From positions 4,517,031-4,581,030 of the forward strand of contig CP016093.1 in NCBI GenBank assembly GCA_001664005.1: 64,000 bases of DNA, read 5' to 3'. Position 1 is the first letter of the stretch. Every line of letters starts with the position of its first letter. Origin of the DNA: Rhizobiales bacterium NRL2. Lineage in GTDB: Bacteria > Pseudomonadota > Alphaproteobacteria > Minwuiales > Minwuiaceae. The translations under genes and the position numbers were made by a program. The notes beneath the pieces were generated by a model that worked only from the letters and a program-made list of their open reading frames with translations, did not search any database and was not told the origin of the DNA. Below, one piece after another: positions 30,012 through 44,866 of the stretch.

Positions 30012-30014
30012 ACG

Positions 30015-30740
30015 GTGGCCGCCCGGTGTCCCGGACAGAACCCGCCAGACGGCCCGACCGAGGACGAGGTCGCCGACTTCCTGGCCCGCCATCCCGATTT
30101 CCTGAACCGCCGGCCGGAGCTGCTGCGCCGGCTGGCGCCGCCGTCCCGCTTCGAAGAGGCCCCGGGCGACGGCGCGGAGATCGTCGACATGCAGGGCTTC
30201 ATGGTGACACGCCTGCAGCAGGACCTGGCCCGCACCCGCGACAGCCATGACGAACTGATCCAGTCCGCGCGCTCCAACCTGTCCAGCCAGGCCCTGATCC
30301 ACCAGGCGGTGCTGGCCCTGCTCGACGCCCGCGACTTCGAGGAACTGATCCACACCGTCACCCACGACCTGCCGCTGCTGCTCGATGTGGACGCGTCTTC
30401 GCTCTGCATCGAATCGGATGGCACGCCGGCCTCGCGGACCCAGGGCGTCTACGTCCTGCCCGTGGGCGCCGTCGACCAGGCGCTGGGGCCGGAGCGCCGC
30501 GTGCTGCTGCGCGAGCGGGCCGAGGACACGGAACGGATGTTCGGCCCGGCGGCGGCGCTGGTCCGCTCCGACGCGCTGGTCCGGCTGACGCCGAACAGCC
30601 ACGCCCCGGTGGCGCTGCTGGCGCTGGGCAGCCGGGAGGGGGGCCGCTTCCACCCCGGCCAGGGCACCGAACTGCTCGCCTTCATGGCCGAAGTGCTGGA
30701 AAGATGTCTGCGCAAGTGGTTGAATCTTCCCGCGGCCTGA
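30015..30740 (+). CDS. DUF484 family protein
   Basis: A 241-residue cytoplasmic protein. It has EDEVADFLARHPDFLNRRPEL at the N-terminus, then the predicted coiled coil around residues 60-95 (MVTRLQQDLARTRDSHDEL), then a GAF-like second half including LLLDVDASSLCIES and LLALGSREGGRFHPGQGTEL. This is DUF484, often found immediately before xerC; its function is unknown. The start is a GTG at 30015, three bases after the transaldolase stop, so translation may be coupled. Here a RidA gene separates it from xerC. Confidence 0.9.
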   Translation: MAARCPGQNPPDGPTEDEVADFLARHPDFLNRRPELLRRLAPPSRFEEAPGDGAEIVDMQGFMVTRLQQDLARTRDSHDELIQSARSNLSSQALIHQAVLALLDARDFEELIHTVTHDLPLLLDVDASSLCIESDGTPASRTQGVYVLPVGAVDQALGPERRVLLRERAEDTERMFGPAAALVRSDALVRLTPNSHAPVALLALGSREGGRFHPGQGTELLAFMAEVLERCLRKWLNLPAA

Positions 30741-30762
30741 ACCGCCGGCGAGGGAGAACGCA

Positions 30763-31158
30763 ATGAAACCCGAAATGATCGTGCCCGACGGACAGGGCTG
30801 GGCGCCGAAGCACTTCCACATGGCCCCTGCGACGCGCGCGAAGGGCATGATCTGGATGTCCGGCGTGGTCGCCAACCAGAGCGAGGCGGGCGACGGCGCC
30901 ATGGAGGCCGCGATCGAGCAGGCCTTCGAGACCATTGGCCAGACGCTCGCCGCGGCGGGCAGCGACTGGGAACACGTGGTCGACATCACCTCCTACCACA
31001 CCGATCTGGACGGCCAGATGAAGACCTTTATGGCGGTCAAGGACCGCTATCTGAAGGGGCCGGACTACCCGGCCTGGACGGCGATCTCGATCACCGCGCT
31101 GGCCATCCCGACGGGCGTCGTGGAGATCAAGGTCACCGCCGTCGAGAAGGACGGGTGA
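30763..31158 (+). CDS. RidA family protein
   Basis: A 131-residue YjgF/YER057c/UK114-family protein. Typical RidA proteins hydrolyse reactive imines from PLP-enzyme reactions and assemble as trimers in the cytoplasm. Seen are GMIWMSGVVANQS, AIEQAFETIGQTLAAAGSDW, VVDITSYHTDLDGQM and the C-terminal AWTAISITALAIPTGVVEIK. The family arginine normally found just before the last motif is not obvious (YPAWTAI), so this may be a non-deaminase subgroup. A GGCGAGGGAGAACGCA stretch precedes the ATG. The stop overlaps the xerC start. Confidence 0.88.
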   Translation: MKPEMIVPDGQGWAPKHFHMAPATRAKGMIWMSGVVANQSEAGDGAMEAAIEQAFETIGQTLAAAGSDWEHVVDITSYHTDLDGQMKTFMAVKDRYLKGPDYPAWTAISITALAIPTGVVEIKVTAVEKDG

Positions 31159-32090
31159 GCGGAGTTTCCCAGGACTTCCTACGATCGGCCCGCCGGGCCT
31201 GGCTCGACTGGCTGGAGCACGAACGCCGCCTGGCGGCGCGGACGCTGACCGCCTACGCCGCCGACTTCGACGACCTGACGGACTTCCTGACCGGCCATCT
31301 GGGCGGTCCTGTCGACCATGCCGCGTTGAGCGCGCTCCGGCCGGCCGACCTGCGCGCCTGGCTCGCGGCCCGGCGCCGCCGCGGCGTCGGCGCGGCCTCC
31401 AATGCGCGCGCCATCGCGGCCGTCCGCAGCTTCTTCCGCCGCATGGACCAGATCGGCCGTCTGAGCAATCCGGCGGCCCAGTCGCTGGAGCCGCCCCGCA
31501 GCCCCCGCCGCCTGCCCAAGCCGGTCTCCGAAGCGGCGGCGCGGGCGCTGGTCGACGGGCCGGTGGCGACACGGCGCGACTGGCAGGCGCTGCGCGACCG
31601 GGCGGTGCTGCTGCTGCTCTACGGCGCCGGGCTGCGCATCTCGGAGGCGCTGGCGCTCACCGTCGACGACGCGCCGCTGGGATCGGCGGTCACGGTGGAC
31701 GGCAAGGGCGGTCGGGCGCGCCGCGTGCCGCTGCTCGCGATCATCGGGGAGGCGGTCGAGGACTATCGCCGCGCCTGCCCGCACGAGGAGACGCCGGACC
31801 GGGCGCTGTTCGTCGGCGCCCGCGGCGGCGCGCTCAGGCCGGAGATCGTGCAGGCCGCGGTGCGGCGGCTCCGGGGCGCGCTCGGCCTGCCGGAGACGGT
31901 GACGCCCCATGCGCTCCGCCACAGCTTCGCCACCCATCTGCTGGGCGGTGGCGGCGACCTGCGCGCGATCCAGGAACTGCTCGGCCACGCATCGCTCTCG
32001 ACCACCCAGCTCTACACCGAAGTCGACGCCGAAGCGCTGTGGGAGACCTACCGCCGGGCCCGTCCGCGCTTCGACCGCGGCGGTGGATGA
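31155..32090 (+). CDS. xerC: tyrosine recombinase XerC
   Basis: A 311-residue site-specific recombinase that, with XerD, resolves chromosome dimers at dif. The N-terminal core-binding domain has ARTLTAYAADFDDLTDFL. The catalytic residues are seen as R in GAGLRISEAL, K in VDGKGGRARRVPL, H-x-x-R in TPHALRHSFATHLLG, H in LLGHASLSTTQLY and the nucleophile Y in TQLYTEVD. The start is a GTG at 31155 overlapping the RidA stop (GTGA). It ends 57 bases before tRNA-Ser and belongs to the chromosome, not to the island that follows. Confidence 0.93.
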   Translation: MSGVSQDFLRSARRAWLDWLEHERRLAARTLTAYAADFDDLTDFLTGHLGGPVDHAALSALRPADLRAWLAARRRRGVGAASNARAIAAVRSFFRRMDQIGRLSNPAAQSLEPPRSPRRLPKPVSEAAARALVDGPVATRRDWQALRDRAVLLLLYGAGLRISEALALTVDDAPLGSAVTVDGKGGRARRVPLLAIIGEAVEDYRRACPHEETPDRALFVGARGGALRPEIVQAAVRRLRGALGLPETVTPHALRHSFATHLLGGGGDLRAIQELLGHASLSTTQLYTEVDAEALWETYRRARPRFDRGGG

Positions 32091-32146
32091 ATCGGCGACC
32101 ATCGGGCTTGATCTGAGGACTCGCGCGGCTATAGTCCCGGCCTTCC

Positions 32147-32234
32147 GGAGGGATGGCCGAGCGGTTTAAGGCGCACGCCTGGAAAGCGTGTTGGGTGCAA
32201 GCCCTCGGGGGTTCGAATCCCCCTCCCTCCGCCA
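32147..32234 (+). tRNA. tRNA-Ser(GGA)
   Basis: An 88-base class II tRNA with encoded CCA. The acceptor stem is GGAGGGA / TCCCTCC with discriminator G. The anticodon loop is CTGGAAA with GGA at 32181-32183. A long variable arm (TTGGGTGCAAGCCCTC) follows, then the T arm GGGGGTTCGAATCCCCC. Its 3' end is repeated at 41730-41744, making it the attachment site of the element that follows. The gene itself stays intact. Confidence 0.97.
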
Positions 32235-32235
32235 G
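32221..32235 (+). repeat. left attachment-site repeat
   Basis: CCCTCCCTCCGCCAG covers the last 14 bases of tRNA-Ser plus one base. It is repeated exactly at 41730-41744, next to the integrase gene. This is the usual core left by tyrosine integrases that insert in tRNA 3' ends. Confidence 0.88.
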
Positions 32236-32578
32236 TTCTCCTATCTAACATATTGACATTTATAAATAGTCTGTGGATTGATCTGCGAAAACCCCACCAT
32301 CAACCCCACTATCTGATGGCCAAAGGCAGTGTTTTTGCCCCTGCGGCTGCGCCATCTTGCCATTCATCCGCCGCGCTGCGCCATCTACGGTCGGGCCTTT
32401 AGTCCGGCAGATCGACGCCCTGGAGGGAACAATCCCGCGAAAGGGGGGCCTCCCCCAAACGGCGGGGGGTGTCGTTTGTGTTCCTTTGGTACACCGGCCC
32501 GTTCAAAAATTTTTCGGGGCTTGTTTCAGGCCGTTTCGCCCCAAGCTGAGGCCAAACAAAGCAGGGGAACCGGAGCGC
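32236..32578. other. island left-end non-coding segment
   Basis: No convincing gene between tRNA-Ser and the first island gene. The first 60 bases are AT-rich. ATCAACCCCACTAT at 32299-32312 resembles the repeats near the right end (41576-41601) and may be an integrase arm-type site. The open frame running through 32357-32578 has no recognisable start or content. Confidence 0.5.
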
Positions 32579-33061
32579 ATGAAGCGTAGCAGTCCCAAAT
32601 ATGAGGGCATTCTTGCTGCGCCCATGAAACCAAGTGCCAGCAACCCGCTTGATATGCTCGAACGCGTGTTCGCTTTGAAAGAGCACTACAGGATCACAGG
32701 GAACCTGGACGAGGGCGGCTTGATGCAGCTCTTGCTTGCGCTTGCAGCTGATCATGTTCCTGGGTTCCGCTTCGCGGATGAGTCAGCGGCTCTGATTCCA
32801 GAAACGAGCGCCACCAGAGATTTGGTGCTCTTAGTGGAAGTCCACAAGTTGAGCAAGGATGGGGGCGGTCCGCACAGCGTAAGAAATGCAGCTGCAATTG
32901 TTGCGAAGCAGCGTCCAGACTTAGGCCTCACCGCTAAGAGTGCAAGAGTCAGATACGCAGAAATGATATCGAAAAATAGCGACAGAGGGTCAAAGCGACG
33001 TCTCGAGCTGGCGAAGCTCATTTCTCTTTTAGAAAAATCAGGGTTTCCAAGAAAGTTGTAG
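32579..33061 (+). CDS. hypothetical protein of the island
   Basis: A 160-residue, soluble, charged protein starting MKRSSPKYEGILAAPMK at an ATG with GGAG upstream. The first 90 residues include NPLDMLERVFALKEHYRITG and look helical. The C-terminal half is basic (GSKRRLELAKLISLLEKSGF). I do not recognise a family. Its position ahead of alpA, near the element's left end, would suit an early regulatory or replication accessory protein, but this is only a guess from context. Confidence 0.6.
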   Translation: MKRSSPKYEGILAAPMKPSASNPLDMLERVFALKEHYRITGNLDEGGLMQLLLALAADHVPGFRFADESAALIPETSATRDLVLLVEVHKLSKDGGGPHSVRNAAAIVAKQRPDLGLTAKSARVRYAEMISKNSDRGSKRRLELAKLISLLEKSGFPRKL

Positions 33062-33169
33062 TCATCGGGATTTCAGCCTCCACTACAACTCCAAGATAGT
33101 TGTCTTCTCTGCTCAGGAAGCACCCCTCCGTTTCCGCACGGGTGCGCACTGGCAAGCAGCGAGGACGAT

Positions 33170-33370
33170 ATGAACACACGATCTGGAACCCGCATTGTCC
33201 GCGAGCGCGAGCGCGCGTTCATCACCGGTATCAGCCGCTCCACCTGGTGGCGACTTCATCAAGCTGGCGAAACACCCAAGAAGGTTCGACTGAGCAAAAA
33301 CAGCGTTGGGTGGTTGCTCGATGACCTTCAAGACTGGCTGCGGGAACGCGCCGGCCGGGAGGTGGTGTGA
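33170..33370 (+). CDS. AlpA-family DNA-binding regulator
   Basis: A 66-residue protein with the MerR-like helix-turn-helix of AlpA/phage regulatory proteins: ERERAFITGISRSTWWRLHQ, followed by FPKK-like PKKVRLSKNSVGWLLDDL and QDWLRERA. AlpA proteins switch on the excision or lytic programme of P4-like elements and chromosomal islands. Its stop overlaps the start of the next gene, so the two are translated together. It is probably the activator of the primase gene block. Confidence 0.88.
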   Translation: MNTRSGTRIVRERERAFITGISRSTWWRLHQAGETPKKVRLSKNSVGWLLDDLQDWLRERAGREVV

Positions 33371-33756
33371 TGCAGCGCCTCTTCAAACTCGGTCCAATCT
33401 GGATGAGCATGGTCTCCGGGTGCCATACCAAGCCTTGGCGTAGGCCCGGCAGAGGCGCCGCGATGTCCGCTCTGGGGGTTGCATGTGATCTGTCTGACTG
33501 CGCATGCGCGGGCGCCCGGTTGCCGGAGTTCTATCATGAGGGATCGCTTCTTCGGGCAGTTCGTGTGGCTCATCGCCTTGGCGTCGATCAGCCTTCAAGG
33601 CCGATCGACAGCGTGTCGCCTCTGGCAGCTGGGATACTGCTAGCCAAGGGGCTACATATCTTCACGGTAAGCACCAGCGACGAGTTCGCAGAGGAATGGC
33701 TGAAATTCCTCACATGGGCTGCGCCCGACACCGAATTCCTGGAGCCGGGCCGATGA
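33370..33756 (+). CDS. hypothetical protein between alpA and primase
   Basis: A 128-residue protein beginning MQRLFKLGPIWMSM. Its ATG overlaps the alpA stop and its TGA overlaps the primase ATG (ATGA), so it sits in a tightly coupled three-gene unit. It has several cysteines in the first half (CHTKPW, CDLSDCACAG). It has a C-terminal segment GLHIFTVSTSDEFAEEWLKF. No family recognised. The tight coupling is the main reason to believe it is real. Confidence 0.55.
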   Translation: MQRLFKLGPIWMSMVSGCHTKPWRRPGRGAAMSALGVACDLSDCACAGARLPEFYHEGSLLRAVRVAHRLGVDQPSRPIDSVSPLAAGILLAKGLHIFTVSTSDEFAEEWLKFLTWAAPDTEFLEPGR

Positions 33757-36122
33757 AGTCGATCTTCGATCTCTGGCCCGAGAAGGGCGAGCACTGCCTG
33801 TTCTCAGCCCGCGACGGTGGTCACCCCGAACACCATTGGGTCTCCGATCGCGCGGAGGCCGAAGCGAAGGCGCGGGAACTGGATAAGGCCGGTTGCGAGG
33901 TGTACTTCGCCCCTGCGGCCTTCGAGAAACAGAGCCGCAAGCAAGAGATGGTGGTGCAGGTCCAGAGCCTGTGGATCGACATCGACTGCGGGCCGAAAAA
34001 GCCATATGCCGCGGTTCAGGAGGGGCTTGCCGCTTTCAGTGAGTGCGTAACAACCGGGCGGCTCCCTCCCCCGTCCGCCGTCGTTCAGTCGGGACATGGC
34101 CTGCACGCCTACTGGAAGTTCAGTGAGCCAATCGTCTGTGAACGGTGGAAGCCGCTCGCCGAAGCCTTCAAGGCGTATCTGCGTTCTATCGACCTGAAGA
34201 TCGACCCTGCCTGCACGGCAGATGGGGCGCGCGTGATGCGTGTTCCTGGTACGCACAACCGGAAGACTCAGCCGTTGAAGGTCGAGGTGCATTTCTCGGA
34301 AGCCGCGTACGACCCCGCAGAACTGGAAGAGCTGACAAGGGACTTCGCCAAACCGGAGTCCGGTCGGCCAGAGAGTTCGCGGTGGACGGCCGGCATGGAG
34401 CAGGAGTTTCCGCCGGCGCGTATCGAATCCATCGAGGAAGGGTGCGCCCAGATGGCCCATGTGAAGGCGGAAGGCGGCGCTGTCAGCGAACCCCTATGGC
34501 GTGCGGCACTGTCCGTGCTCTGGCGCTGTGAAGGCGGCAAAGACCTGATCCACGAATGGAGCAAGGGTGACCCTCGCTACGACACGGCGGAGACAACGGC
34601 CAAGGCTGACGGGACGCAAGGCCCCTATACCTGCGAGACGTTCGCGGAGCTAGGGGGCGACGAGCGGTGCACCGGGTGTCCGCACAAGGGCAAGGTGAAG
34701 AGCCCGATCATCCTGGGCCAGTCGCGTCTGCCCGCATTACCTGTTGTGCTTGATGGCGAGGTGCTTCCTCCGGGTGGCACCTGGACCGACGAGCGGCTTG
34801 CCGCCGCCTTTACGCACAAGTTCGCAGACCGCCTGCGATATGTCGCAGCATGGGGCGTGTGGATGATCTGGGATGGCCGACGCTGGCGAAGGGATGAGAC
34901 CCTGGAGGCCAAGGATCTTGCCCGCCGCGTCTGCCAGGCCGTCGCGTCACAGGCCAAAGATAACGGCAAGGGGCTTGGCTCGCGTAGAACCATCGATGCC
35001 GTCGAGGCGCTGGCAAGGGCGGACAGAAAGCACGCGGCAACGGTGGATCAGTGGGACGCCGATCCGCTGCTGCTCAACACGCCCGGCGGAATGATCATGC
35101 TCGGGAGTGAGCCTGAAGTTCTGCCACATGACCCCGAACGCCACCAGACCAGGATGACGGCAGTAGCGCCCGATTTCGAAATGGACACGCCCCTGTGGGA
35201 TGCCGTTCTCGACCGAATCACAGGGGGCGACGTGGAACTGCAAGCCTTCCTGCAACGGGTGATGGGCTACGGCCTGACCGGTGAGACAGGCGAGCACGCC
35301 GTGTTTTTCCTTTATGGCAAGGGCGCCAACGGCAAGTCCGTATTCGTGGAGACGGTTGCGGGGATCTTGGGCGACTACAGGTCCAACGCCCCGGTCGATA
35401 CCTTCATGTCATCGTCGAATGACCGGCATTCAACTGAACTCGCGCGGATGCAGGGGGCGAGGCTGGTGACCGCGACCGAGACGCCGGAAGGAAGGCGCTG
35501 GGATGAGGCCAAGATCAAGGCCCTGACTGGTGGCGACATGATCACGGCTCGATTCATGCGACAGGACGACTTCGAGTTCAAACCGCAGTTCAAGCTGGTG
35601 ATCTCGGGCAACCACAAGCCCGGCCTGCGAAGCGTCGACGAGGCTATGCGGCGGCGCATGCACCTGATCCCTTTCGACGTAACGATCCCGCCGGAAGAGC
35701 GTGATCCCCAGCTCTTCGAGAAGCTGAGAAGGGAATGGCCCGGCATTCTCGCCTGGATGGTGAAGGGCTTCATGGAATGGCGACGGATCGGGCTGGCACC
35801 GCCTGCCAGTGTCAGGGCGGCGTCGGATGAGTACCTGGAAGACGAGGACAGCTTTGGGCAGTGGCTGGAGGGGAACGTGGAAGAGGACCCTAGCGGCTTC
35901 ATGTTGACCGGGCTGTTATATGCAGACTGGCAAGGGTACTGCATCAGGGCCGGGGAACATGCGGGAACGGAACGCCAGTTCAGTCAGAAACTCCGTGACA
36001 AAGGTTTCGAGCGGCACCGCACCAATACCGGGCGGGGCTTCAAGGTCCGTCTTGTCAAAAAATCTGGACATACTTCCGGGGCTGGTGACGGCAGTGACGC
36101 TTGTGACGGTAAAAACCCATAG
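33753..36122 (+). CDS. P4/D5-type primase-helicase
   Basis: A 789-residue replication protein. The N-terminal half is primase-like (LWIDIDCGPKKPY, VVQSGHGLHAYWKFSEP), followed by a cysteine pair in ERCTGCPHKGKVKSP near 308. A D5_N-type region starts near residue 350 and the helicase domain has the Walker A motif FLYGKGANGKSVFVE near 530. The SF3 helicase continues with RLVTATETPEGRRWDEAKIK and KLVISGNHKPGLRSVDEAMR. Such proteins start replication of P4-like satellites and islands. The ATG at 33753 overlaps the stop of the preceding gene; an upstream in-frame start adds unrelated residues. Confidence 0.88.
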   Translation: MKSIFDLWPEKGEHCLFSARDGGHPEHHWVSDRAEAEAKARELDKAGCEVYFAPAAFEKQSRKQEMVVQVQSLWIDIDCGPKKPYAAVQEGLAAFSECVTTGRLPPPSAVVQSGHGLHAYWKFSEPIVCERWKPLAEAFKAYLRSIDLKIDPACTADGARVMRVPGTHNRKTQPLKVEVHFSEAAYDPAELEELTRDFAKPESGRPESSRWTAGMEQEFPPARIESIEEGCAQMAHVKAEGGAVSEPLWRAALSVLWRCEGGKDLIHEWSKGDPRYDTAETTAKADGTQGPYTCETFAELGGDERCTGCPHKGKVKSPIILGQSRLPALPVVLDGEVLPPGGTWTDERLAAAFTHKFADRLRYVAAWGVWMIWDGRRWRRDETLEAKDLARRVCQAVASQAKDNGKGLGSRRTIDAVEALARADRKHAATVDQWDADPLLLNTPGGMIMLGSEPEVLPHDPERHQTRMTAVAPDFEMDTPLWDAVLDRITGGDVELQAFLQRVMGYGLTGETGEHAVFFLYGKGANGKSVFVETVAGILGDYRSNAPVDTFMSSSNDRHSTELARMQGARLVTATETPEGRRWDEAKIKALTGGDMITARFMRQDDFEFKPQFKLVISGNHKPGLRSVDEAMRRRMHLIPFDVTIPPEERDPQLFEKLRREWPGILAWMVKGFMEWRRIGLAPPASVRAASDEYLEDEDSFGQWLEGNVEEDPSGFMLTGLLYADWQGYCIRAGEHAGTERQFSQKLRDKGFERHRTNTGRGFKVRLVKKSGHTSGAGDGSDACDGKNP

Positions 36123-36263
36123 TGCTCTATAGGCGAAACGAATGAACTTTTCCTAGAGGGTAATAGGAATCTCCCGTCACAAGCGTCACTCGCGTCACTT
36201 GTGCCGATATGGCACAATGCCAATAGCTTGCAGGCTTGGAACAACCGCATCTGGAACAAGACA

Positions 36264-36788
36264 ATGAGCACAGGACATCGAGCCCCGACCGGCCTCACCG
36301 TCGACCAGGAGCGGTTTGCCCACCTGCTGTTGTCAGGCTACAGCCAGAGCGACGCCTACCGCGAAGTCTGGCCGCGTTCCCGGCGCTGGAAACCGGAGAG
36401 CGTCCACACGGCAGCCTCCAGGATGGCCGCCAAGGTCGCGCCAAGGTGCGCGGTGCTGCTGGAACTGGAACTCACGGGTGCGCGCCTCACGATCGAGCAG
36501 ACAATCGAGGACCTGCACCAGGCACGCGAACTGGCGATGGAGAAGGGTGATGCGGCTGGGGCGGTGAGGATGACGGGTGCGCTGGCACGGTTGTGCGGGT
36601 TTCTCAGGAGGGCCGGTAAACGACATCGGCTAGACGATACTCGGGCTTTTGATCCAGCAAGCTTGCTCGCGGCGGTGCAGGGAAAGATGAACCCCAGTGA
36701 GCCTGTTGCCGACAGCCTCCAATCACGTCAGCCGGCAGCACCTGAAGCGTTACGTTGGCGAGTTCGATTTCCGCTATATCACCCGTGA
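36264..36788 (+). CDS. small terminase-like protein (C-terminus altered)
   Basis: A 174-residue protein with the small-terminase pattern LTVDQERFAHLLLSGYSQSD-AYREVW at the N-terminus, the DNA-binding helices. LTIEQTIEDLHQARELAMEK with AAGAVRMTGALARLCGF matches the oligomerisation part. The small subunit selects viral DNA for packaging; in satellites it redirects a helper's packaging machine. From about residue 153 the frame runs into the IS1595 transposase remnant in another frame, so the last 20 or so residues (SRQPAAPEALRWRVRF) are not native. No large terminase is present. Confidence 0.7.
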   Translation: MSTGHRAPTGLTVDQERFAHLLLSGYSQSDAYREVWPRSRRWKPESVHTAASRMAAKVAPRCAVLLELELTGARLTIEQTIEDLHQARELAMEKGDAAGAVRMTGALARLCGFLRRAGKRHRLDDTRAFDPASLLAAVQGKMNPSEPVADSLQSRQPAAPEALRWRVRFPLYHP

Positions 36789-36881
36789 TATGACCGACGC
36801 GGAACGCGCCCACGAAGCTCCTCGGGCATCGCCGGCAAGCGCCTCACCCATCGGCGGACTGACGAAGCCCAAACTGCCTAG
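36721..36881 (+). pseudogene. IS1595-type transposase C-terminal remnant
   Basis: In one frame it reads NHVSRQHLKRYVGEFDFRYI and DMTDAERAH. In the next frame it reads GIAGKRLTHRRTDEAQTA followed by TAG at 36879-36881. Both parts are the ordered C-terminal end of IS1595-family transposases, so the piece has at least one frameshift near 36815-36825 and lacks everything upstream. No terminal inverted repeats are visible. Its left edge disrupts the end of the small-terminase gene. Confidence 0.75.
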
Positions 36882-37305
36882 GCACAAGGCCCGCCGCTTC
36901 GTACGATGGCGTGCAAGGAAACGTCGGCAATAGGCGCGTGCGCGTTGCGCGACTAGTCACCGGGAACAGGAATGCAGACGTACCTATTGCGGAAGTTATG
37001 ATCCAGTGGGCCTTCCTCCAGGGGGGTGTCGTCGAAACGGTCTTCAGTCGCGTCCGCTTCCTTCGTAAGCGACAGGGCAACTTCGGCACAATCGGCCGGA
37101 TCTTCATGCCGATAACCTGTGTCGAGATTTGTTACCCCAATGTCTGATACAGGGATCAGGACGACCAGCGCCCAGACAATATCCACTTATGCCCCCCTTG
37201 CCGTGTATGGTTTGCGCCTTTTGCCGAAGGTGATACGGTACCTAGCCACTAGTCAATTTAATAGCCAAGAGCATCGTCCCCCGTTGACGCTAAGGAGCCA
37301 ATAAA
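36882..37305. other. poorly coding spacer in the island
   Basis: About 420 bases without a convincing gene. A 77-codon minus-strand frame at 36953-37186 (MDIVWALVVLIPVSDIGVTN at its start) has a fairly protein-like composition. It lacks a clear ribosome site and known relatives. The end of the segment carries the ribosome site for the secreted protein at 37306. Confidence 0.4.
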
Positions 37306-37617
37306 ATGTGGAAATCAGGCCTGATATTGGCAGCAATGTTGCTGCCGGTTCCCGCAGTTGCTGGATGCGGACTTGCTTCCAATTGCTCGACGGATTCACA
37401 GGGAAATACTTATATAACGCGGGACAATCTGGGCGGTGGTCAGAATACTTATCGAAATGGAAGACTCCATTCTCAGACACAGCAGAATCTTTCTGGCGGG
37501 TACACAGAGAGGTTCAGCAATGGCTCAAGGCAGTATCACAGCACCAACCCATATAATCAGCCCGGTCCATCAGGGCCTTATGACAGCCAGCGAGACCCCT
37601 TTCGTATCAATGAATGA
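37306..37617 (+). CDS. small secreted protein, unknown function
   Basis: A 103-residue protein with a clear signal peptide (MWKSGLILAAMLLPVPAVAG) and a mature part rich in G, N, Q, S, T and Y. The repeated pattern includes GNTYITRDNLGGGQNTYRNG, then SQTQQNLSGGYTERFSNGS. The ribosome site TAAGGAG is strong and well spaced. Two cysteines lie just after the cleavage site (CGLASNC). The family is not recognised. The repeats suggest a surface or extracellular, possibly self-associating, polypeptide, as island cargo. Confidence 0.7.
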   Translation: MWKSGLILAAMLLPVPAVAGCGLASNCSTDSQGNTYITRDNLGGGQNTYRNGRLHSQTQQNLSGGYTERFSNGSRQYHSTNPYNQPGPSGPYDSQRDPFRINE

Positions 37618-37670
37618 CGGTGCTGCGCCATAGAAGCGGCTGCCTAGTTGGTTTCGTGGCGACTGCTTGA

Positions 37671-37850
37671 TCAGGTCGCCGCATATTCACCCCAAGCCTG
37701 CATCAACTCCCGCCGCTTCTCCAGCGCATCCCCCCGCCGATACGCGCGCTCGGTGCTGTCGCCAACCACATGGGCCAATGCGGCCTCCGCAAGTTCCAGA
37801 CGGAAGTCCGTTTCCCCGCTTACCCGATCGCGATCCTCTTCGGTCAACTG
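37671..37850 (-). pseudogene. tyrosine integrase C-terminal remnant
   Basis: On the minus strand the segment encodes GETDFRLELAEAALAHVVGD, then STERAYRRGDALEKRRELM and QAWGEYAAT before a TGA at 37671-37673. This is the C-terminus of a P4-type integrase with the nucleophile tyrosine in ERAYRR, but the rest of the gene is missing. It parallels the end of the full integrase at 40349-41557 yet differs at many bases. It is therefore the remnant of a different integrase, not a recent duplication. Confidence 0.85.
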
Positions 37851-37866
37851 CCCGGCCTACCCATCG

Positions 37867-38097
37867 TCATATCTGCTGAGCAGCGGGGCTCCCGCCGATG
37901 CTGATCGAAACCGCCCGCGAGCCACATACTCCGCAGCGTAGAGACCGCTTCAACCTGTCCAGGGGGTAGTCCCCGCCCAGCCGTCTCGCCAGTGCAGCAA
38001 GATCCAGCGTCGAGCAATGGCGGCATTCGTCGCAGAAGGCGTGAACCTGGAAGCCACGGAAGTCGTCGAGGGTTTCAAGTATGATCGGGCGATGCAT
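37867..38097 (-). CDS. small zinc-ribbon protein
   Basis: A 76-residue protein with two CxxC pairs: CDECRHCSTLDLAALARRLG near residue 22 and LRCGVCGSRAVSISIGG near 54, joined by a helix. The pattern is that of small zinc-ribbon proteins often seen in prophages and alphaproteobacterial islands, of unknown function. The start at 38097 overlaps the 5' region of the divergent nuclease gene by no known coding sequence. It may bind nucleic acid. Confidence 0.6.
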   Translation of the reverse strand: MHRPIILETLDDFRGFQVHAFCDECRHCSTLDLAALARRLGGDYPLDRLKRSLRCGVCGSRAVSISIGGSPAAQQI

Positions 38098-38188
38098 GAA
38101 CGTCAGGAGAACACAGAGTGCCGCCGAACTTGCCTGTCATGGCGTCGCGCTGCATTGTGACAGCATCCGAATTTTCGTGGGGCAGGGA

Positions 38189-38908
38189 ATGCGAGCGCTG
38201 ATCCTATGCGTCGGGCTTCTCTTTCCCCAGCTCGCCCCCGCCCAGGTCCTCCAGGTCGATTATGAGGGCTTCACGGTCTGGGTCGATTGTGACCGGCGCG
38301 GGGCCGTGCTCTTTCATTACATCGCCGGCCCGGACACGGGTAACGAAGAGCGGGAATCCGACTACGAGCACGATCCGGAGATCCCGGCGCGGTGCCAGTC
38401 CCTGAGCACGGACACCTTTCAATCGACCATCCCGGATGGTGGTCCGCGTTATGACGTGGGTCACCAGGTACCGGCCAATCACATGGACGGCTCAGAGATC
38501 GCCATTGCCCAGACGAATTACTGGACGAACCTGCTGCCGCAGACGGCATCCATGAACCGAGGCGCGTGGCGCGAGACGGAAGATATCATCGAATGCCTGC
38601 GGGAGCTGGTTCCGCTGGAAGTCTGGGGCGGGCCGATATGGGGCGCGAACTTCGCGGATGACCGCTTTGTCGGCACGCATGGCATCCAGACGCCGGCCGC
38701 TTTCTGGAAGGTCGCTATCCGCATGGACAGCCGCGAGGCGAACGCATGGATCATTCCCAACGGGCCAGCGCCGCGCAGTTCGCTCGATCAGTGGCTGGAA
38801 GCTGTCGGGACGGTTGAGAAGGTGACGGGCCTGACGTTCAACGCGGCGGACAAGGACCTCAAGCCCGCGGCGTCATGGGCGCAGCCTGACGGATGCGACA
38901 TCAGTTAG
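38189..38908 (+). CDS. secreted DNA/RNA non-specific endonuclease
   Basis: A 239-residue protein with a signal peptide (MRALILCVGLLFPQLAPA) and the EndA/NucG nuclease core. RYDVGHQVPANHMDG near residue 90 holds the catalytic histidine, IAQTNYWTNLLPQTASMNRG gives the metal-binding asparagine, and WRETEDIIE follows. The usual DRGH box reads DVGH, so the arginine is replaced by valine. The ATG at 38189 has GGGGCAGGGA upstream. It probably degrades nucleic acid outside the cytoplasm, for nutrients, entry control or competition. No immunity gene is evident. Confidence 0.82.
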   Translation: MRALILCVGLLFPQLAPAQVLQVDYEGFTVWVDCDRRGAVLFHYIAGPDTGNEERESDYEHDPEIPARCQSLSTDTFQSTIPDGGPRYDVGHQVPANHMDGSEIAIAQTNYWTNLLPQTASMNRGAWRETEDIIECLRELVPLEVWGGPIWGANFADDRFVGTHGIQTPAAFWKVAIRMDSREANAWIIPNGPAPRSSLDQWLEAVGTVEKVTGLTFNAADKDLKPAASWAQPDGCDIS

Positions 38909-39144
38909 CGTGTGTGCGCCGAGTGGACATCATCAAAGCAATAGGGATGCGGCGCGCCCACGTCGCCATTCACTATGCTTTCAACCTCAATCGACATGTG
39001 AAGCGTTGAGTTGACTGCGACAGTCAGCGCCGTGGCGCGGATGTGTGGATCTATGGGGCGCAGCGGCTCTCATTTCTGAAGTCACAGCCTCCGGGAAACT
39101 CGGCGCGGTTCACTTGCCGCCAAGAATACAGGCGATGTAGGCTG

Positions 39145-40356
39145 ATGAGCATGAAATGCCTTGTTCTGATTTTCGTCCTTGTACTGACAATGCCCTCACT
39201 CGTTTGGGCAGATTTCGATGATGGACTAAGGGCATACGACGCGGGTGATTACGCCACAGCGATTGAACAATTCCGCCGCGCCGCTGACCAGGGGCTTGCT
39301 GTCGCGCAACACAATCTCGGCCTCATGTACGATCAAGGACAGGGCGTAGCGGAGAACGACATCGAAGCGGTGAAGTGGTACCGACGCGCAGCTGAACAGG
39401 GCGATGCAAGGGCGGAAACCAGTCTAGGCGCCATGTATTACAAAGGCCAAGGGGTGGCGCAGGACGACGCCGAAGCCGCCAAGTGGTTCGGGCACGCTGC
39501 GGAGCAAGGCTACGCGAGGGCTCAGTTCCTGCTCGGCTTGATGTACGACGATGGCCGGGGCGTGGCGCAGGACAAGACCAAAGCCGCCAACTGGTACCGA
39601 CGCGCCGCTGAGCAAGGCGATGAAGGGGCGCAAGTTGTGCTCGGTGGTATGTACGACGAAGGTCAGGGGGTGGCTCAGGATTATGCCGAAGCCGCCAAGT
39701 GGTACCGACTCGCCGCTGAGCAAGGCAACGCAGGCGCGCAGTTGCTGCTTGGCGACATGTACGCCAAAGGAAAGGGCCTGGCGCAGGACGATGGCGAGGC
39801 TTCGAAGTGGTTCCGACGCGCCGCTGAGCAGGGGCATGTAGAGGCGCAGTTCGTGCTCGGCATCCGTTATATGAATGGCCTGGGCTTGGCGCAGGACGAT
39901 GGCGAGGCTTCGAAGTGGGTCCGACGCGCCGCTAAGCAGGGGCATGTAGAGGCGCAGTCCGTGCTCGGCTACATGTACAGTGCAGGGCGAGGCGTAGCCG
40001 AGAACTATGTTGAAGCCTACCGGTGGACCAGCCTCGCATCCGCAACAGGGCATGCGCGGTCCCGGCGATTACTCAAAGCTCTAAAGGGGGAGATGACCCC
40101 TACGCAAATCGCCGAAGGTCAGCGACTGGCGGCTGGTGGCAAGATCGGCCCAAACGTGGCGGGCTGGGATGCGGTCAGTCGGCCAGATATCAAGCGTATT
40201 CAACAGGCGCTGAGCCATCTTGGCTTCGATGTTGGCCCGATTGATGGCATCGCGGGCGATCGAACCAAGTCGGCGTTAAGGACCTTCCAGCGTGTTCGGG
40301 AGCTGCCGGTCGGTGAGCCGGATCCTGCGACGCTTGAGGCTCTCGGCATCAGGTAG
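39145..40356 (+). CDS. Sel1-repeat protein with peptidoglycan-binding domain
   Basis: A 403-residue exported protein. The signal peptide is MSMKCLVLIFVLVLTMPSLVWA. About eight Sel1 repeats of 36 residues run from about residue 40 to 310 (pattern AEQGDARAETSLGAMYYKGQGV). A C-terminal PG_binding_1 domain follows from about 340 (RIQQALSHLGFDVGPIDGIA, GDRTKSALRTFQ). Sel1 arrays bind proteins; the last domain should hold the protein to the cell wall. The family includes periplasmic signalling scaffolds. It is the last cargo gene and ends overlapping the integrase gene by eight bases on the opposite strand. Confidence 0.9.
   Translation: MSMKCLVLIFVLVLTMPSLVWADFDDGLRAYDAGDYATAIEQFRRAADQGLAVAQHNLGLMYDQGQGVAENDIEAVKWYRRAAEQGDARAETSLGAMYYKGQGVAQDDAEAAKWFGHAAEQGYARAQFLLGLMYDDGRGVAQDKTKAANWYRRAAEQGDEGAQVVLGGMYDEGQGVAQDYAEAAKWYRLAAEQGNAGAQLLLGDMYAKGKGLAQDDGEASKWFRRAAEQGHVEAQFVLGIRYMNGLGLAQDDGEASKWVRRAAKQGHVEAQSVLGYMYSAGRGVAENYVEAYRWTSLASATGHARSRRLLKALKGEMTPTQIAEGQRLAAGGKIGPNVAGWDAVSRPDIKRIQQALSHLGFDVGPIDGIAGDRTKSALRTFQRVRELPVGEPDPATLEALGIR
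39781..39970 (+). repeat. near-identical 108-bp tandem duplication in the Sel1 gene
   Basis: The bases from 39781 recur from 39889, a spacing of 108, one Sel1 unit. Across roughly 80 bases I find three differences (at 39811/39919 region, 39826/39934 region and 39851/39959 region). The other repeats are much more diverged, so this pair is a recent duplication or conversion. Confidence 0.75.
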
Positions 40357-41557
40357 GCGCGTTTCCTTCGCGGACGTAGCGAGCCCACGCATCCATCAAC
40401 TCCCGCCGCTTTTCAAGCGCATCCCCGCGCCGGTACGCCCGCTCGGTGCTGTCTCCGGTGACGTGGGCCAGCGCAGCCTCGGCGATCTCGCGTCCGAAGT
40501 CCGTTTCCTCGCCTACCCAATCGCGGAAGGCCGAGCGGAAGCCGTGGACCGTGTAGGGCAATTCCATGCGGCGCAGGATCATGCCCATTGCCATGTTCGA
40601 CAGCGGCTTTCCCTTCCGCTGGCCGGGGAACACATAGGCCGCCCCCAGGTCGGTATCCTCCGGCAGGAGTAGCTGCATCTGCTGTAGTATCTCGACCGCC
40701 CTGTCCGGGAGTGGGACGCGGTGGATGCGTCCCGCCTTCATTCGCGCGGCGGGCACGGTCCATACCGCCTTCTCCAAATCCATTTCGCTCCAGCGCGCGC
40801 CGGTGACCTCGCCGGTCCGTGCGGCTGTCAGGATCAGGAACTCCAGCGCCAGCGCCCCGGTTGAGGGCTGCGCCCTGAGTTTCTCAACGAACGCCGGAAC
40901 GTTGCCATAGGGCATCGCCTTGTGATGGCCACGCGTCAGCTTCGCCCGCCGAGGCAACAGCTTGTCCAGATGCCCGCGCCAGCGCGCCGGGTTCTCCCCC
41001 TCGCGCAGCCCCTCGGCCTTGGCCGCGTCCAGAACATTCTCGATGCGCCCGCGCAGCCGAGAGGCCGTCTCCGCCTTCGCCGTCCAGATCGGCCGCAGGA
41101 TCTCCAGCACGTCCGCCGTATCGATCGCATCCACGGACTTGCGTCGGATCGGCTTGCAATATTCGGTCAGCGTCATCTTCCACTGCGCCCGGTGCTTGGC
41201 GTTCCGCCACTCAGGGCCCTTGGCCTCGATGAATTGGTCCGCATACGCCCCGAAGGTGGGAATGGCCGTTGCCGTCTCCCGCACTGTCTGCCGTGTTGCG
41301 AGAGGATCGCGCCCCGCTTGCAGGCAATCGCGGTAATCCTGAGCCAGCTCACGCGCTTTGGCGAGTCCAACGCCGCCGCGCCCTGCCGGTCCCAACCCCA
41401 TTTCCGTCCGCTTGCCGTTGCGCGTGTACATGAACGCCCAGTTGCGGCTGCCCGCCGGCGTGACGACCAGGTAAAGGTATCCGCCGTCGCTGTAGCGTCC
41501 GGGCTTGGCGATTGTGTCCACCTGGCGGGCGGAGAGCTTGTTGAGTACCCGAGCCAT
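40349..41557 (-). CDS. P4-type tyrosine integrase of the island
   Basis: A 402-residue integrase. The N-terminal DUF4102-type arm-binding domain reads YSDGGYLYLVVTPAGSRNWA and GLGPAGRGGVGLAKARELA. The catalytic domain has R in LTAARTGEVTGARW, H-x-x-R in VHGFRSAFRDW, H in ALAHVTGDSTERAYRRGD and the nucleophile Y within ERAYRR. The gene lies with its start about 170 bases from the right attachment repeat, the usual place. It should insert the element into the tRNA-Ser end. No excisionase gene besides alpA is visible. Confidence 0.95.
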   Translation of the reverse strand: MARVLNKLSARQVDTIAKPGRYSDGGYLYLVVTPAGSRNWAFMYTRNGKRTEMGLGPAGRGGVGLAKARELAQDYRDCLQAGRDPLATRQTVRETATAIPTFGAYADQFIEAKGPEWRNAKHRAQWKMTLTEYCKPIRRKSVDAIDTADVLEILRPIWTAKAETASRLRGRIENVLDAAKAEGLREGENPARWRGHLDKLLPRRAKLTRGHHKAMPYGNVPAFVEKLRAQPSTGALALEFLILTAARTGEVTGARWSEMDLEKAVWTVPAARMKAGRIHRVPLPDRAVEILQQMQLLLPEDTDLGAAYVFPGQRKGKPLSNMAMGMILRRMELPYTVHGFRSAFRDWVGEETDFGREIAEAALAHVTGDSTERAYRRGDALEKRRELMDAWARYVREGNAPT

Positions 41558-41575
41558 GGCTTTCCCTTTGCTTCC

Positions 41576-41601
41576 ATCAACCCTACTACCAACCCTACTA
41601 T
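41576..41601 (+). repeat. tandem sequence motif, possible integrase arm sites
   Basis: ATCAACCCTACTA is followed at once by CCAACCCTACTAT, two near-copies of one motif. A third copy, ATCAACCCCACTAT, lies at 32299-32312 near the left end. Motifs of this kind near both ends of an element, one pair just upstream of the integrase start, suit arm-type binding sites or integrase autoregulation. Confidence 0.45.
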
Positions 41602-41729
41602 GGAAGCGAGATCAGGTGAAACACCTTGATCAAGGGAGAGCGTATCATGATGCTGGAAAGCCGGAAACAAAGGGTTTTTGGGGAATGAATGAAACATCAA
41701 GAAACAGGGTGGACACGAAGTTAGGCGGA

Positions 41730-41744
41730 CCCTCCCTCCGCCAG
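41730..41744 (+). repeat. right attachment-site repeat
   Basis: An exact copy of CCCTCCCTCCGCCAG from the tRNA-Ser end, 173 bases upstream of the integrase start. It marks the right end of the element. The flanking bases differ from those at the left copy. Confidence 0.88.
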
Positions 41745-41888
41745 ATGCCTATCACGTCATTTTATATCGTAATTTCAATATCATAGTTGAGAAGTCCGCT
41801 TGGGCTTCCCCACACGTTTTTCCCACACGCTTGGTCGGGACTGGCTCACTGACTTAAGGTGGAGTGAACCACCGTGTAGGCAGCTTCA

Positions 41889-42665
41889 ATGAGCCTGGAT
41901 TTCGACGACATACCAGACAGCCCGTTGGAACGGGCTTTGATGCTTCAAGATATGCTGATCGACTTGGCAGAGAATGGTGGGATTGATCAGGCTCTGTATC
42001 GTCGAATTCGGTCGGATTTTATGGAGGGCGAGACCCGGAACCTACTACCCCAATTTGTTCGCACAAGCCGGGACAGTGGGGCGCTTTGGGCGCATTTTCG
42101 ACGGGTCGCGTACGGCAGCGGCGCTTGGGCGGCAAGGCGGGACCACATCCACGCAGAGTTTCAACCTCTCCTTGATCACTTGGAGGGGAGTAACAACGCC
42201 CCAGCCGATGCCGCGATCTCTGAGGCGCTCACGTCCTTAGACCCCGATGGGGTTCATCGCGCTTGGGAGCGCGCCTTGGGCCGACGGCACAGCGAACCGG
42301 AGGGCGCAATAACAGCAGCGCGGACGCTGCTGGAGACCGTCTGCAAGTACATTCTGGATGAGGCAGGAGAGACCTACGGAGACGATGACCTGCCTAAGCT
42401 CTACAATAAGACTGCCAAGCTTCTGAACCTTTCCCCCTCCCAACACACCGAAGAAGCGTTCAAGGCGATCCTAGGGGGCTGTCATACAGTCGTGCAGAAC
42501 CTCGGCACGTTGAGGAACCGGATCGGGGATGCGCATGGGCAGGGAAAGAACCCGGTTAGACCGCTTCCACGTCACGCTGCCCTCGCCGTCAACCTGGCGG
42601 GGTCGATGGCCACGTTCCTAGTGGAGACATGGAAGGCCAAGACCACCGAGGGAACTGATTCCTAG
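41889..42665 (+). CDS. abortive infection protein with Abi_C domain
   Basis: A 258-residue soluble protein. The C-terminal half from about residue 135 matches the Abi_C (abortive infection C-terminus) pattern: EGAITAARTLLETVCKYILD, AKLLNLSPSQHTEEAFKAIL, GGCHTVVQNLGTLRNRIGDA, and then PLPRHAALAVNLAGSMATFL. The N-terminal half is helical and unrecognised. The RNRxGDAHG segment recalls HEPN-type R(x4-6)H motifs, so RNase activity is possible but unproved. It begins 145 bases outside the right attachment repeat, so it is either chromosomal or from another insertion. Such proteins are thought to stop phage by damaging the host. Confidence 0.85.
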   Translation: MSLDFDDIPDSPLERALMLQDMLIDLAENGGIDQALYRRIRSDFMEGETRNLLPQFVRTSRDSGALWAHFRRVAYGSGAWAARRDHIHAEFQPLLDHLEGSNNAPADAAISEALTSLDPDGVHRAWERALGRRHSEPEGAITAARTLLETVCKYILDEAGETYGDDDLPKLYNKTAKLLNLSPSQHTEEAFKAILGGCHTVVQNLGTLRNRIGDAHGQGKNPVRPLPRHAALAVNLAGSMATFLVETWKAKTTEGTDS

Positions 42666-42932
42666 CGGCCTTCTGGAAATCCTGCCGCAAATCTCTGAGC
42701 AGCTCTCACACTGCCGCGTCCTCCGCTCTTCCCCCATCGGGGTGGGCGACCTCGTGTAGGCGAGGCGTTTCCCCCTGCAGGCAAGGGGCGGTCGACCGGG
42801 CCGTAGCTACAGGGATGTGCGGACGGTCTAGCAAGGACCCACAATGCCTAGCTGGCGAAATTCGTATCGGCGCGAACGCCAGACAACCAGCGAATGGCAG
42901 TGAGGCCCTAGAGACAACTCCGCCGACCGCTT

Positions 42933-43481
42933 TCAATCGTCGCGTTGCAACGCCTCTGAAAGGGCATCCGCACTGATCTGGTGGCGCTCGAACAGCGCCC
43001 GGTAGCGCACAGTCTTGGGCAGCGGATTGGCACCAACGCTAATGTAGTTGCCGCCTGAACTAACAAATGGACGCTCATCGCCCCTCTTGAGCAGAAACAG
43101 CACGTAGGGAGCGTCACTGTCTCTATAGTCCTTCCAATGCCGCTCGTCCTTTTCGCCTATTAATAGAAGATAATCATATTTTTTTCCGCCGGCCTGCCCA
43201 TAAATCTTGTTCCACTGCCATCGTCGCCCGGGACTTCCCTTTACAGAGACATTTGCCTTCGAGTATTTTACTTCGACACGCGCCCCGTTGGACATCTCCA
43301 AGTCGAAGAGTTCAGTGTGATGTGTGAGTTGACCTCCGGTGATAGCTGCAACGAGTTGCTCGCCTCTCGCGCCATAGCCGAGCGTTGTGTGCCCTTCCCA
43401 GAAGGCAAGTTTTCGCTCTAGTTCAATCACCCTAGCCTTGAGGCGCTCGTTGTCCTCTCGCAATTGCTCGGCCTCATTCAT
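42933..43481 (-). CDS. coiled-coil protein with PD-(D/E)XK-like core
   Basis: A 182-residue protein. Residues 1-35 form a short coiled coil (NEAEQLREDNERLKARVIEL). A possible nuclease core follows: GYGARGEQLVAAITGGQL, then an acidic strand LFDLEMSNGARVEVKYSKA with the D-x(n)-ExK pattern, then RWQWNKIYGQAGGKKYDYLL. That spacing is typical of PD-(D/E)XK restriction-like folds. The start at 43481 (MNEAEQ) is preferred to 43514. It is convergent with the Abi_C gene, in DNA less GC-rich than the flanks. A role in defence is inferred from context only. Confidence 0.6.
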   Translation of the reverse strand: MNEAEQLREDNERLKARVIELERKLAFWEGHTTLGYGARGEQLVAAITGGQLTHHTELFDLEMSNGARVEVKYSKANVSVKGSPGRRWQWNKIYGQAGGKKYDYLLLIGEKDERHWKDYRDSDAPYVLFLLKRGDERPFVSSGGNYISVGANPLPKTVRYRALFERHQISADALSEALQRDD

Positions 43482-43852
43482 TCCGACTTCCCCCGCCTTG
43501 CTCGTGTTTAACAAGATGTACCGAAAAGGTATCCGTCAATCGAGCCACCTGGTACCAAATGAGCGATCCTTGGGTCGGCTCTATGGAGGAACGCAATACA
43601 GATGCGAGGGCGCTGCTCTTAGTCGAGACGTGGGCGCCCCTCCCTCACACCCGCCAAGGCGGAGGTGGAACCGGGGCGGTGTCGTCACCACATGATGATC
43701 AATGGCCTGCAGACGTCAGGCTTCGCGCCTGTCCGAAGCCTATGGAACAGGCCGTGCGGACGCGGCGCGCAGCGGCCGCCCGGCGCCTGATCCGGCCGCA
43801 TCAGCGTTCCATCCCCGATTTCCGGGTCCGATTCCTCCTCAAGGGAGACAGC
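43482..43852. other. gene-free stretch before the desaturase
   Basis: About 370 bases with no convincing gene; the long open frame through it has no recognisable content. CCCCTCCCTC at about 43637-43646, followed shortly by CCGCCA, partly resembles the tRNA-Ser end, so it may be a decayed attachment site or another C-rich intergenic repeat. The ribosome site AAGGGAG for the desaturase lies at its end. Confidence 0.4.
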
Positions 43853-44866
43853 ATGAGCCCACAAGCCGACCTTCGCCGCCACACGCGGCGATTCCAGGCG
43901 CCTGTCCCGCGCAAGGGCGTGTCCCAGACACTCACCTCCTTCGGCGGTTTCTTCGCCAGCTGTGCGGCGATGTACGTCCTCAGCGGGTTCTCCCACTGGG
44001 CGGCGCTGGCGCTGGCCCCGCTGGCCGCGGGCTTCCTGGTGCGCATCTTCATCATCCAGCACGACTGCGGACACTACTCGTTCTTCGGCGGACGCCGGGC
44101 GAACGCCGTTCTCGGTTTCGCCTGCAGCCTGCTGACGCTGGCGCCCTATGCCTCCTGGCGCCGCCAGCATGCCGGCCACCATGGGATCTGGAACGATCTC
44201 GACCGCCGTCAGAGCGGCGCCGACATCTATTCGTCCTGCCTGACGGTGGCGGAGTACCGGGCGCTCAGTCCCATGCGCCGCGGCTGGCACCGGGCGACCC
44301 GGCACCCGCTGGTCGCCAACCTGCTGCTGCCGCCGCTGGTGTTCATCGGCCTGTTCCGGTTCCCGTTCGACACGCCGCGGACCTGGAAGCGCGAGCGCCG
44401 CGCGGTTCACGTCACCAACCTGGCGCTGATCGCCATGTTCGGCGGACTGGGCCTGCTGCTGGGCTTCGGCGAAGTGGCGGCCGTGCAGCTGCCGATCATG
44501 GCGCTGGCGTCGATCATCGGCGTCTGGCTGTTTTCCGTCCAGCATCGCGGCGAGACCACGATCTGGGCGCGGAACGCCGACTGGGATCCGGTCACGGCGT
44601 CGGTGCGGAGTTCGACCTATCTGCGGCTGCCGGCCGTTCTGCGCTGGTTCACCGGCAATATCGGCTATCACCATGTCCATCACCTGAACCCCCGCGTGCC
44701 CAACTACCGGCTCCGGGAGTGCCACGAGTCCGCGCCGGCGCTGCGCGACGTGCCCACCCTGTCGTTCCGGGACGGGCTGCGCGCGGTGCGCTACTGCCTC
44801 TGGGACGAGGCGCGCGGCCGCATGGTCACCTTCCGCGAGGCGGCCGCGGCGGAGGCGCGAGCTTGA
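43853..44866 (+). CDS. membrane fatty acid desaturase
   Basis: A 337-residue membrane-bound, di-iron desaturase/hydroxylase. The three histidine boxes are [11 protein letters not shown] near residue 64, [11 protein letters not shown] near 105 and [12 protein letters not shown] near 270. Hydrophobic segments lie around 30-60, 80-98 and 190-230. The enzyme inserts a double bond in acyl chains of lipids with reduced ferredoxin or a similar donor. The ATG at 43853 has a strong AAGGGAG site. Its stop overlaps the TTG start of the transglutaminase gene (TTGA), so the two are translationally coupled. Confidence 0.9.

Follow-up and report, generated by a model that had tools for sequence, protein, structure and literature searches.

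We lean towards reading the element inserted at a tRNA-Ser gene of Rhizobiales bacterium NRL2 as a satellite of phages that resembles phage-inducible chromosomal islands (PICIs) and is of composite origin. Its features and those of the DNA next to it are listed below by their positions in the window, that is, the whole stretch of 64,000 nucleotides that was analysed.

32147..32234, plus strand: tRNA-Ser(GGA), the integration target (ARAGORN)
32221..32235, plus strand: left attachment core of 15 bp at the 3' end of the tRNA, repeated exactly in direct orientation at 41730-41744
32579..33061, plus strand: 160-aa ORF (best match phrog_19859 at 0.38; scanned from 32615)
33170..33370, plus strand: AlpA, excisionase/activator type (PF05930 4.3e-13; phrog_2790 7.8e-14)
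33753..36122, plus strand: P4-type primase-helicase (D5_N 1.7e-26; DUF5906, PF19263, 1.7e-13; phrog_6088 3.5e-133; TIGR01613 1.5e-86)
36085..36198, no strand: candidate replication origin (inverted repeat I1; iteron layout at the primase 3' end)
36264..36788, plus strand: small terminase, TerS (phrog_51 4.7e-5; tblastn; Pam5 profile match; viral fold matches)
37306..37617, plus strand: 103-aa ORF with a lipoprotein-like N-terminus (by eye)
37677..37838, minus strand: remnant, 3' end of a second integrase (74% amino acid identity to residues 343-396 of the resident integrase)
38189..38908, plus strand: DNA/RNA non-specific endonuclease with a signal-peptide-like start by eye (PF01223 1.5e-29)
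39151..40356, plus strand: Sel1-repeat protein with a peptidoglycan-binding domain and a signal-peptide-like start by eye (PF08238 6.5e-58; PF01471 3.2e-15)
40349..41557, minus strand: tyrosine integrase (PF00589 3.6e-12; PF22022; PF13356)
41724..41744, plus strand: right attachment site (arms GGCGGA/TCCGCC around CCCTCCC, plus AG)
41889..42665, plus strand: AbiJ-like Abi_C gene (PF14355 5e-23; PADLOC AbiJ 2.4e-19)
42933..43514, minus strand: 193-aa ORF without a convincing family match in Pfam, PHROGs, NCBIfam or PADLOC, absent at that place in the relative G004

The repeat of the tRNA-Ser end on both sides, on which the initial annotation had built its proposal, is an exact pair: the window contains precisely two copies of the 15-bp sequence CCCTCCCTCCGCCAG (32221-32235 and 41730-41744), against a chance expectation of about 6e-5 copies per 12 kb under an order-1 Markov model. 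The two copies lie 9.5 kb apart, and the GC content between them is 61%, compared with 69-75% in the preceding four kilobases. On the plus strand between the repeats follow the 160-aa ORF, AlpA, the P4-type primase, TerS, the 103-aa ORF, the nuclease and the Sel1/peptidoglycan-binding protein, and an intact integrase on the minus strand adjoins the right repeat; the frames of integrase, AlpA, primase and TerS are all open. The 160-aa ORF, for which Pfam and NCBIfam gave no family at E<=0.1, is possibly a regulator, judged by its position. Ten chosen ORFs were covered by the Pfam, PHROGs and NCBIfam scans, and neither these nor the phage-gene queries revealed a large terminase (TerL), portal or capsid in the island. 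When 23 queries for phage packaging, head and integrase genes were run against window positions 30001-45000 at E<=0.01, the sole match was that of an integrase query on the host XerC, and the three matches of phrog_2 (TerL) in the host genome all lie outside the window. Family matches and query searches thus agree with the earlier description of a gene set of integrase, AlpA, primase and small terminase that lacks capsid and large terminase genes. An alphaproteobacterial host, also proposed at that stage, is consistent with the named relatives of the primase and with the tmRNA* flag, which we take to denote a permuted tmRNA. About 1 kb past this tmRNA lies a low-GC ORF (14422-15375, in a region of 51-53% GC) with a SIR2-like motif at its start, as seen by eye.

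An empty tRNA-Ser site, for which a comparison with related genomes had been recommended, was found in G004, the closest relative seen. In this genome a single contig carries XerC (96% identical) and, about 0.4 kb away, the desaturase; its sequence aligns with the window as far as 32235 (95%) and again from 43836 onwards (93%), and an additional 35-nt match covers 43659-43693. G004 is devoid of the island and also of the next 1.9 kb, and therefore the extra DNA spans 32236 to about 43658. The originally assigned extent, 32221-41744, is supported by the repeat pair, but the extra DNA continues past 41744. The segment from 41745 to about 43658 is either extra in the host or was lost from G004. 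Its AbiJ-like gene lies outside the inner attachment pair and is missing from the empty site, and neither the AbiJ-like protein nor the 193-aa protein had a match in eight stretches from sister and other genomes; positions 41745-43658 may be the remainder of an older element. A third, decayed attachment site at 43638-43656 (core plus short insert, by eye) was considered and is too weak to claim. In none of the relatives examined did the same gene set occur without flanking repeats, the arrangement that the initial annotation had named as speaking against its own reading.

The integrase and attachment site of the island belong to a family that uses the same tRNA in two sister species. The attachment site (41724-41742) consists of 6-bp inverted arms flanking 7 bp, and the identical 19 nt were found at the same tRNA, beside integrases of 51-54% identity, in the sister species G001 and G003. 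Among the 385 genomes of the class sample, to which G001 does not belong, the 19-nt site is present in three (the host, G003 and G175). It also occurs in three viral contigs, one of which has a 50% identical integrase nearby; a pattern search for the integrase in viral contigs gave one match and no relatives. In G001 and G003, within the few genomes compared, the tRNA-Ser site is occupied by other islands, which share with ours the integrase family, an AlpA-like gene, the 19-nt site and the tRNA, but differ in cargo: a type IIG restriction enzyme in G001 and an SNase-like gene (by eye) beside a Sel1 gene in G003. Neither of the two elements showed a match to the island primase or TerS. Both would fit an ordinary integrative tRNA island that moves otherwise or not at all and carries primase and TerS as passengers, the latter irrelevant to transfer, and so would the IMG/VR contig with the same site and the 50% identical integrase, which has DnaB-like and resolvase-like genes (names by eye). 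However, in the island the primase, the origin-like repeats and TerS form one contiguous run in the same orientation with open frames, an arrangement that passengers would not require, and we consider this explanation rather improbable.

The primase ORF was called from 33696 to 36122, and the ATG at 33753 was chosen by eye as its likely start. At its 3' end, positions 36085..36198 form a probable replication origin of PICI layout, as judged from the arrangement of repeats: three GTGACGnnn units (at 36085, 36094 and 36103) lie within the primase 3' end, three inverted units follow the core, and the core between the two iteron sets comprises 61 nt of 39% GC, a value equally low in 0.4% of island windows. 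Six copies of one hexamer within 125 nt represent the island maximum; in 60 shuffles four copies were obtained in 37, three in 20, five in 3 and six in none. In Gram-negative PICIs, according to the available part of their description, the origin lies directly 3' of the replication gene and has an AT-rich region with one iteron set on either side (PMC6092414). Repeat clusters at the same place often, not always, accompany related primases. In 11 of 16 loci (omitting the duplicates L045, L047 and L051) and in 7 of 15 loci of a second set (without L115 and L139), the cluster near the primase ranked within the top 5% of bins; the test takes the best hexamer per locus, includes some near-duplicate loci and was failed by the other 5 and 8 loci.

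Relatives of the primase were found at four named genome loci and 15 viral loci, and in 24 of the 385 class genomes at E<=1e-40, the host's own counted. They reside in prophages and in elements resembling capsid-forming PICIs, and the primase tree gave no firmly supported partner for the island primase. Neither the 19 named and viral loci nor 18 stretches around primases of the class genomes contain the island's TerS at a convincing score. At the Gemmobacter locus (L034) the primase is followed by TerS (phrog_57), TerL, portal, a head protein (named by kinship to a phrog_4523 protein) and an integrase, and the same order recurs in Martelella, Corticibacterium and the viral contig L048. We provisionally regard these four loci (L034, L035, L036 and L048) as capsid-forming-PICI-like elements of Alphaproteobacteria, because there is little room for tail genes between the head genes and the integrase, on that side only; the one AlpA (PF05930) match of the Gemmobacter genome is weak and far from the locus. 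In a further genome, G286, a tRNA-Met adjoins a run of primase, TerL, head protein, protease, portal and integrase genes. An island of G098 (L150 5137-19632) combines a tRNA-Ser(TGA), a 49% identical integrase, AlpA, parts of a primase, and DrmA-like and GmrSD-like genes; a TerS of the island type was not seen in it. The integrase and primase of a G167 element are related to those of the island. This element was dropped as a candidate for a second compact satellite, since it has a capsid-like frame (by eye) at the contig end; no AlpA (PF05930) match turned up for G167 or L167, whether in their genomes or in their records.

Related primases whose elements also carry TerL, portal and head genes, as well as the capsid-like end of the G167 element, favour a different history, in which the island would be what deletion left of a prophage or capsid-forming PICI, without the late genes that follow TerS and no longer able to move in phage particles. 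On the other hand, the TerS genes of the annotated primase kin belong to other families (phrog_57, 1482 and 83).

The protein encoded at 36264-36788, judged by its kinship with phage TerS in sequence and modelled fold, is a genuine small terminase, and the match to an unrelated family that had been foreseen as a possible objection did not arise. Its PHROGs match is weak, and nothing was found for it in Pfam. By tblastn 33 phage records were matched; among the 30 listed, 22 carry the label 'small terminase', one 'terminase subunit 1' and seven no such label. A profile of 12 TerS sequences, 10 of which match phrog_51, retrieved the solved Pam5 small terminase (8.4e-16), and the single sequence gave one match among solved structures (E 0.041). 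The predicted structure (mean pLDDT 60) is confident mainly in its N-terminal part; both of its matches at E<=0.001 in a viral fold library are small terminases, and a Foldseek search of the PDB gave none at E<=0.001, a small terminase ranking third at E 0.61. The family is rare, with members in 3 of 60 relatives and 11 of 385 class genomes, the window's own genome counted, and a pattern search of genome contigs yielded 70 matches and no relatives.

Sister species G003 carries this TerS twice, at a tRNA-Arg and a tRNA-Val, each time followed by a gene for an SNase-like nuclease (L026 11245-12501 and L027 9990-11285), and at the second locus a Sel1 gene comes next. No TerL match was found near either of the two. 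The TerS pair differs at 5 of 140 codons and the accompanying nucleases at 95 of 215; an estimate of selection on the TerS pair was abandoned, 5 differing codons being too few to judge. For one of the two genes, which has a TAG inside the stretch covered by the profile, the open frame of 153 aa was used. Near the tRNA-Val island a relaxase-like ORF (by eye; L078 4056-5498) hints at a mobilizable element.

A composite nature of the island is suggested by the second integrase 3' end, which retains the last codons and the stop and contains repeat D2 (37691-37832), 80% identical in nucleotides to the 3' end of the resident integrase. Because this piece survives inside the island, the latter probably represents two related elements fused by deletion. 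The simplest account would be two relatives in tandem and a single deletion that took the greater part of the first integrase together with the beginning of the second element; the nuclease/Sel1 end may therefore stem from the second element. The satellite is possibly decayed. The scar of this rearrangement lies 0.9 kb past TerS, which also suits the loss of late genes in a deletion derivative: TerL directly follows TerS in five of seven fetched phage records (ES18, TP901-1, 1N2-2, phiEt88 and Pmp4), the next gene being unlabelled in LP.2 and the remaining record having no annotation. However, the 23 queries detected no trace of a TerL, portal or capsid gene in window positions 30001-45000, the TerS frame is open, and its G003 relatives stand at two tRNAs with no TerL match nearby. 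We hold a deletion derivative to be rather unlikely, though more probable than an ordinary integrative island.

Two prophages of the host were considered as possible helpers. At about 631-657 kb of the genome (L142, L159) a tailed prophage has TerS (phrog_57), TerL, head, tape-measure and J-like tail genes; its primase is 49% identical to that of the island and nearly identical to one in G093, and its TerS is of a different family from the island TerS. The other, near 86 kb, is Mu-like, and a Mu-like phage has been reported as a PICI helper in Pasteurella. Neither prophage shows any link to the island.

Among known satellites, the Gram-negative PICIs EcCICFT073 and PmCI172, as far as the available part of their description goes, are similar to the island in AlpA, a primase with an iteron origin at its 3' side and accessory genes (PMC6092414). 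TerS is optional there and present here, no structural genes having been found in the island; in contrast to them, the integrase of the island lies at the other end and on the other strand, and the island is a probable composite with an integrase remnant and 9.5 kb between its repeats. The part of that source available names among its criteria an AlpA or MerR regulator, an AT-rich region between two iteron sets behind the replication gene, no structural or lytic genes, unidirectional rightward transcription, an attachment site never used by prophages, genes with their nearest kin among PICI genes, and phage-dependent induction, interference and packaging (PMC6092414). The island has the AlpA regulator and, in its sequence layout, the replication gene with both iteron sets; the queries used found no structural or lytic genes, and transcription is not unidirectional, with the core genes on the plus and the integrase and its remnant on the minus strand. 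Because the integrase points opposite to the other genes, we call the island PICI-like, not a strict Gram-negative PICI, a likeness on paper. Marker genes of P4-like satellites include psu, delta and sid; from this group, the P4-family primase model TIGR01613 matched in the NCBIfam scan of the island. With the PICMIs of Vibrionaceae, whose model in the part of the source at hand has integrase, AlpA and a DUF5906-type primase as its three mandatory genes, the island shares these genes, a small gene number and the lack of capsid genes, but it uses tRNA-Ser instead of the fis site and adds TerS and cargo (PMC10803314). Capsid-forming PICIs, as described in the accessible part of their report, have capsid genes of their own (PMC11389934); the cfPICI-like loci L034, L035, L036 and L048 share with the island a related primase and nearby repeats, whereas no TerL, portal or capsid was found in the island and its TerS is of a different family. 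The available text of the Gram-negative PICI paper deals with Enterobacteriaceae and Pasteurellaceae (PMC6092414) and that of the PICMI paper with Vibrionaceae (PMC10803314); among the papers found to mention both phage-inducible chromosomal elements and alphaproteobacteria, no title referred to such an island.

The nuclease and the Sel1 protein appear to be cargo, and we can only guess at a role against incoming phage DNA. No PADLOC family matched the nuclease of the window. An 85% identical copy elsewhere in the host genome (L166 9017-16573) adjoins the PADLOC candidate defence gene PDC-S41 and is also near a trio of VWA, phosphatase-like and kinase-like genes (names by eye), with no Sel1 or integrase match beside it. 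The 'repeat-rich protein' that had been counted as cargo did not hold up: it is the 103-aa ORF, whose sole Pfam match is below the cut-off.

In the satellite reading, a helper phage would trigger AlpA, and AlpA and the integrase, to judge from their families, would excise the island as a circle. The primase-helicase would then copy the circle from the iteron origin (36085-36198), the island TerS would mark its DNA for the large terminase of the helper and thereby for packaging into helper particles, and in a new host the integrase would insert it at the end of the tRNA. For this reading speak the attachment pair, the empty site in G004, the presence of AlpA, primase and integrase, TerS without TerL, and the iteron origin. 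Against it speak the scar right after TerS, the strand of the integrase, the lack of another element with both primase and TerS in the 19 and 18 loci, the sister elements at the same site without primase or TerS matches, and the different TerS family of the tailed prophage of the host. Thus, the satellite first proposed is upheld in its gene set without structural genes, in the empty site and in the probable PICI-type origin, but its repeats do not bound all the extra DNA, it is probably a rearranged composite, its sister elements showed no match to its primase and TerS, and its primase kin include prophages and cfPICI-like elements.

Lone TerS genes beside exported nucleases were found in three tRNA islands, in 2 of the 7 genomes of the genus that were searched. 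It is conceivable, though we give it very little credence, that such genes direct a packaging machine residing in the chromosome, perhaps a gene transfer agent, of which the islands would be satellites; this guess was prompted by the TerL match in each of the seven genomes, which does not imply a single locus.

The integrase scar shows how tandem islands may fuse. The island, together with the primase kin in Gemmobacter, Martelella and Corticibacterium, suggests that PICI-like and cfPICI-like elements exist in Alphaproteobacteria and share a module of primase plus repeats. Its ends are defined, and its candidate origin and its TerS are open to testing.
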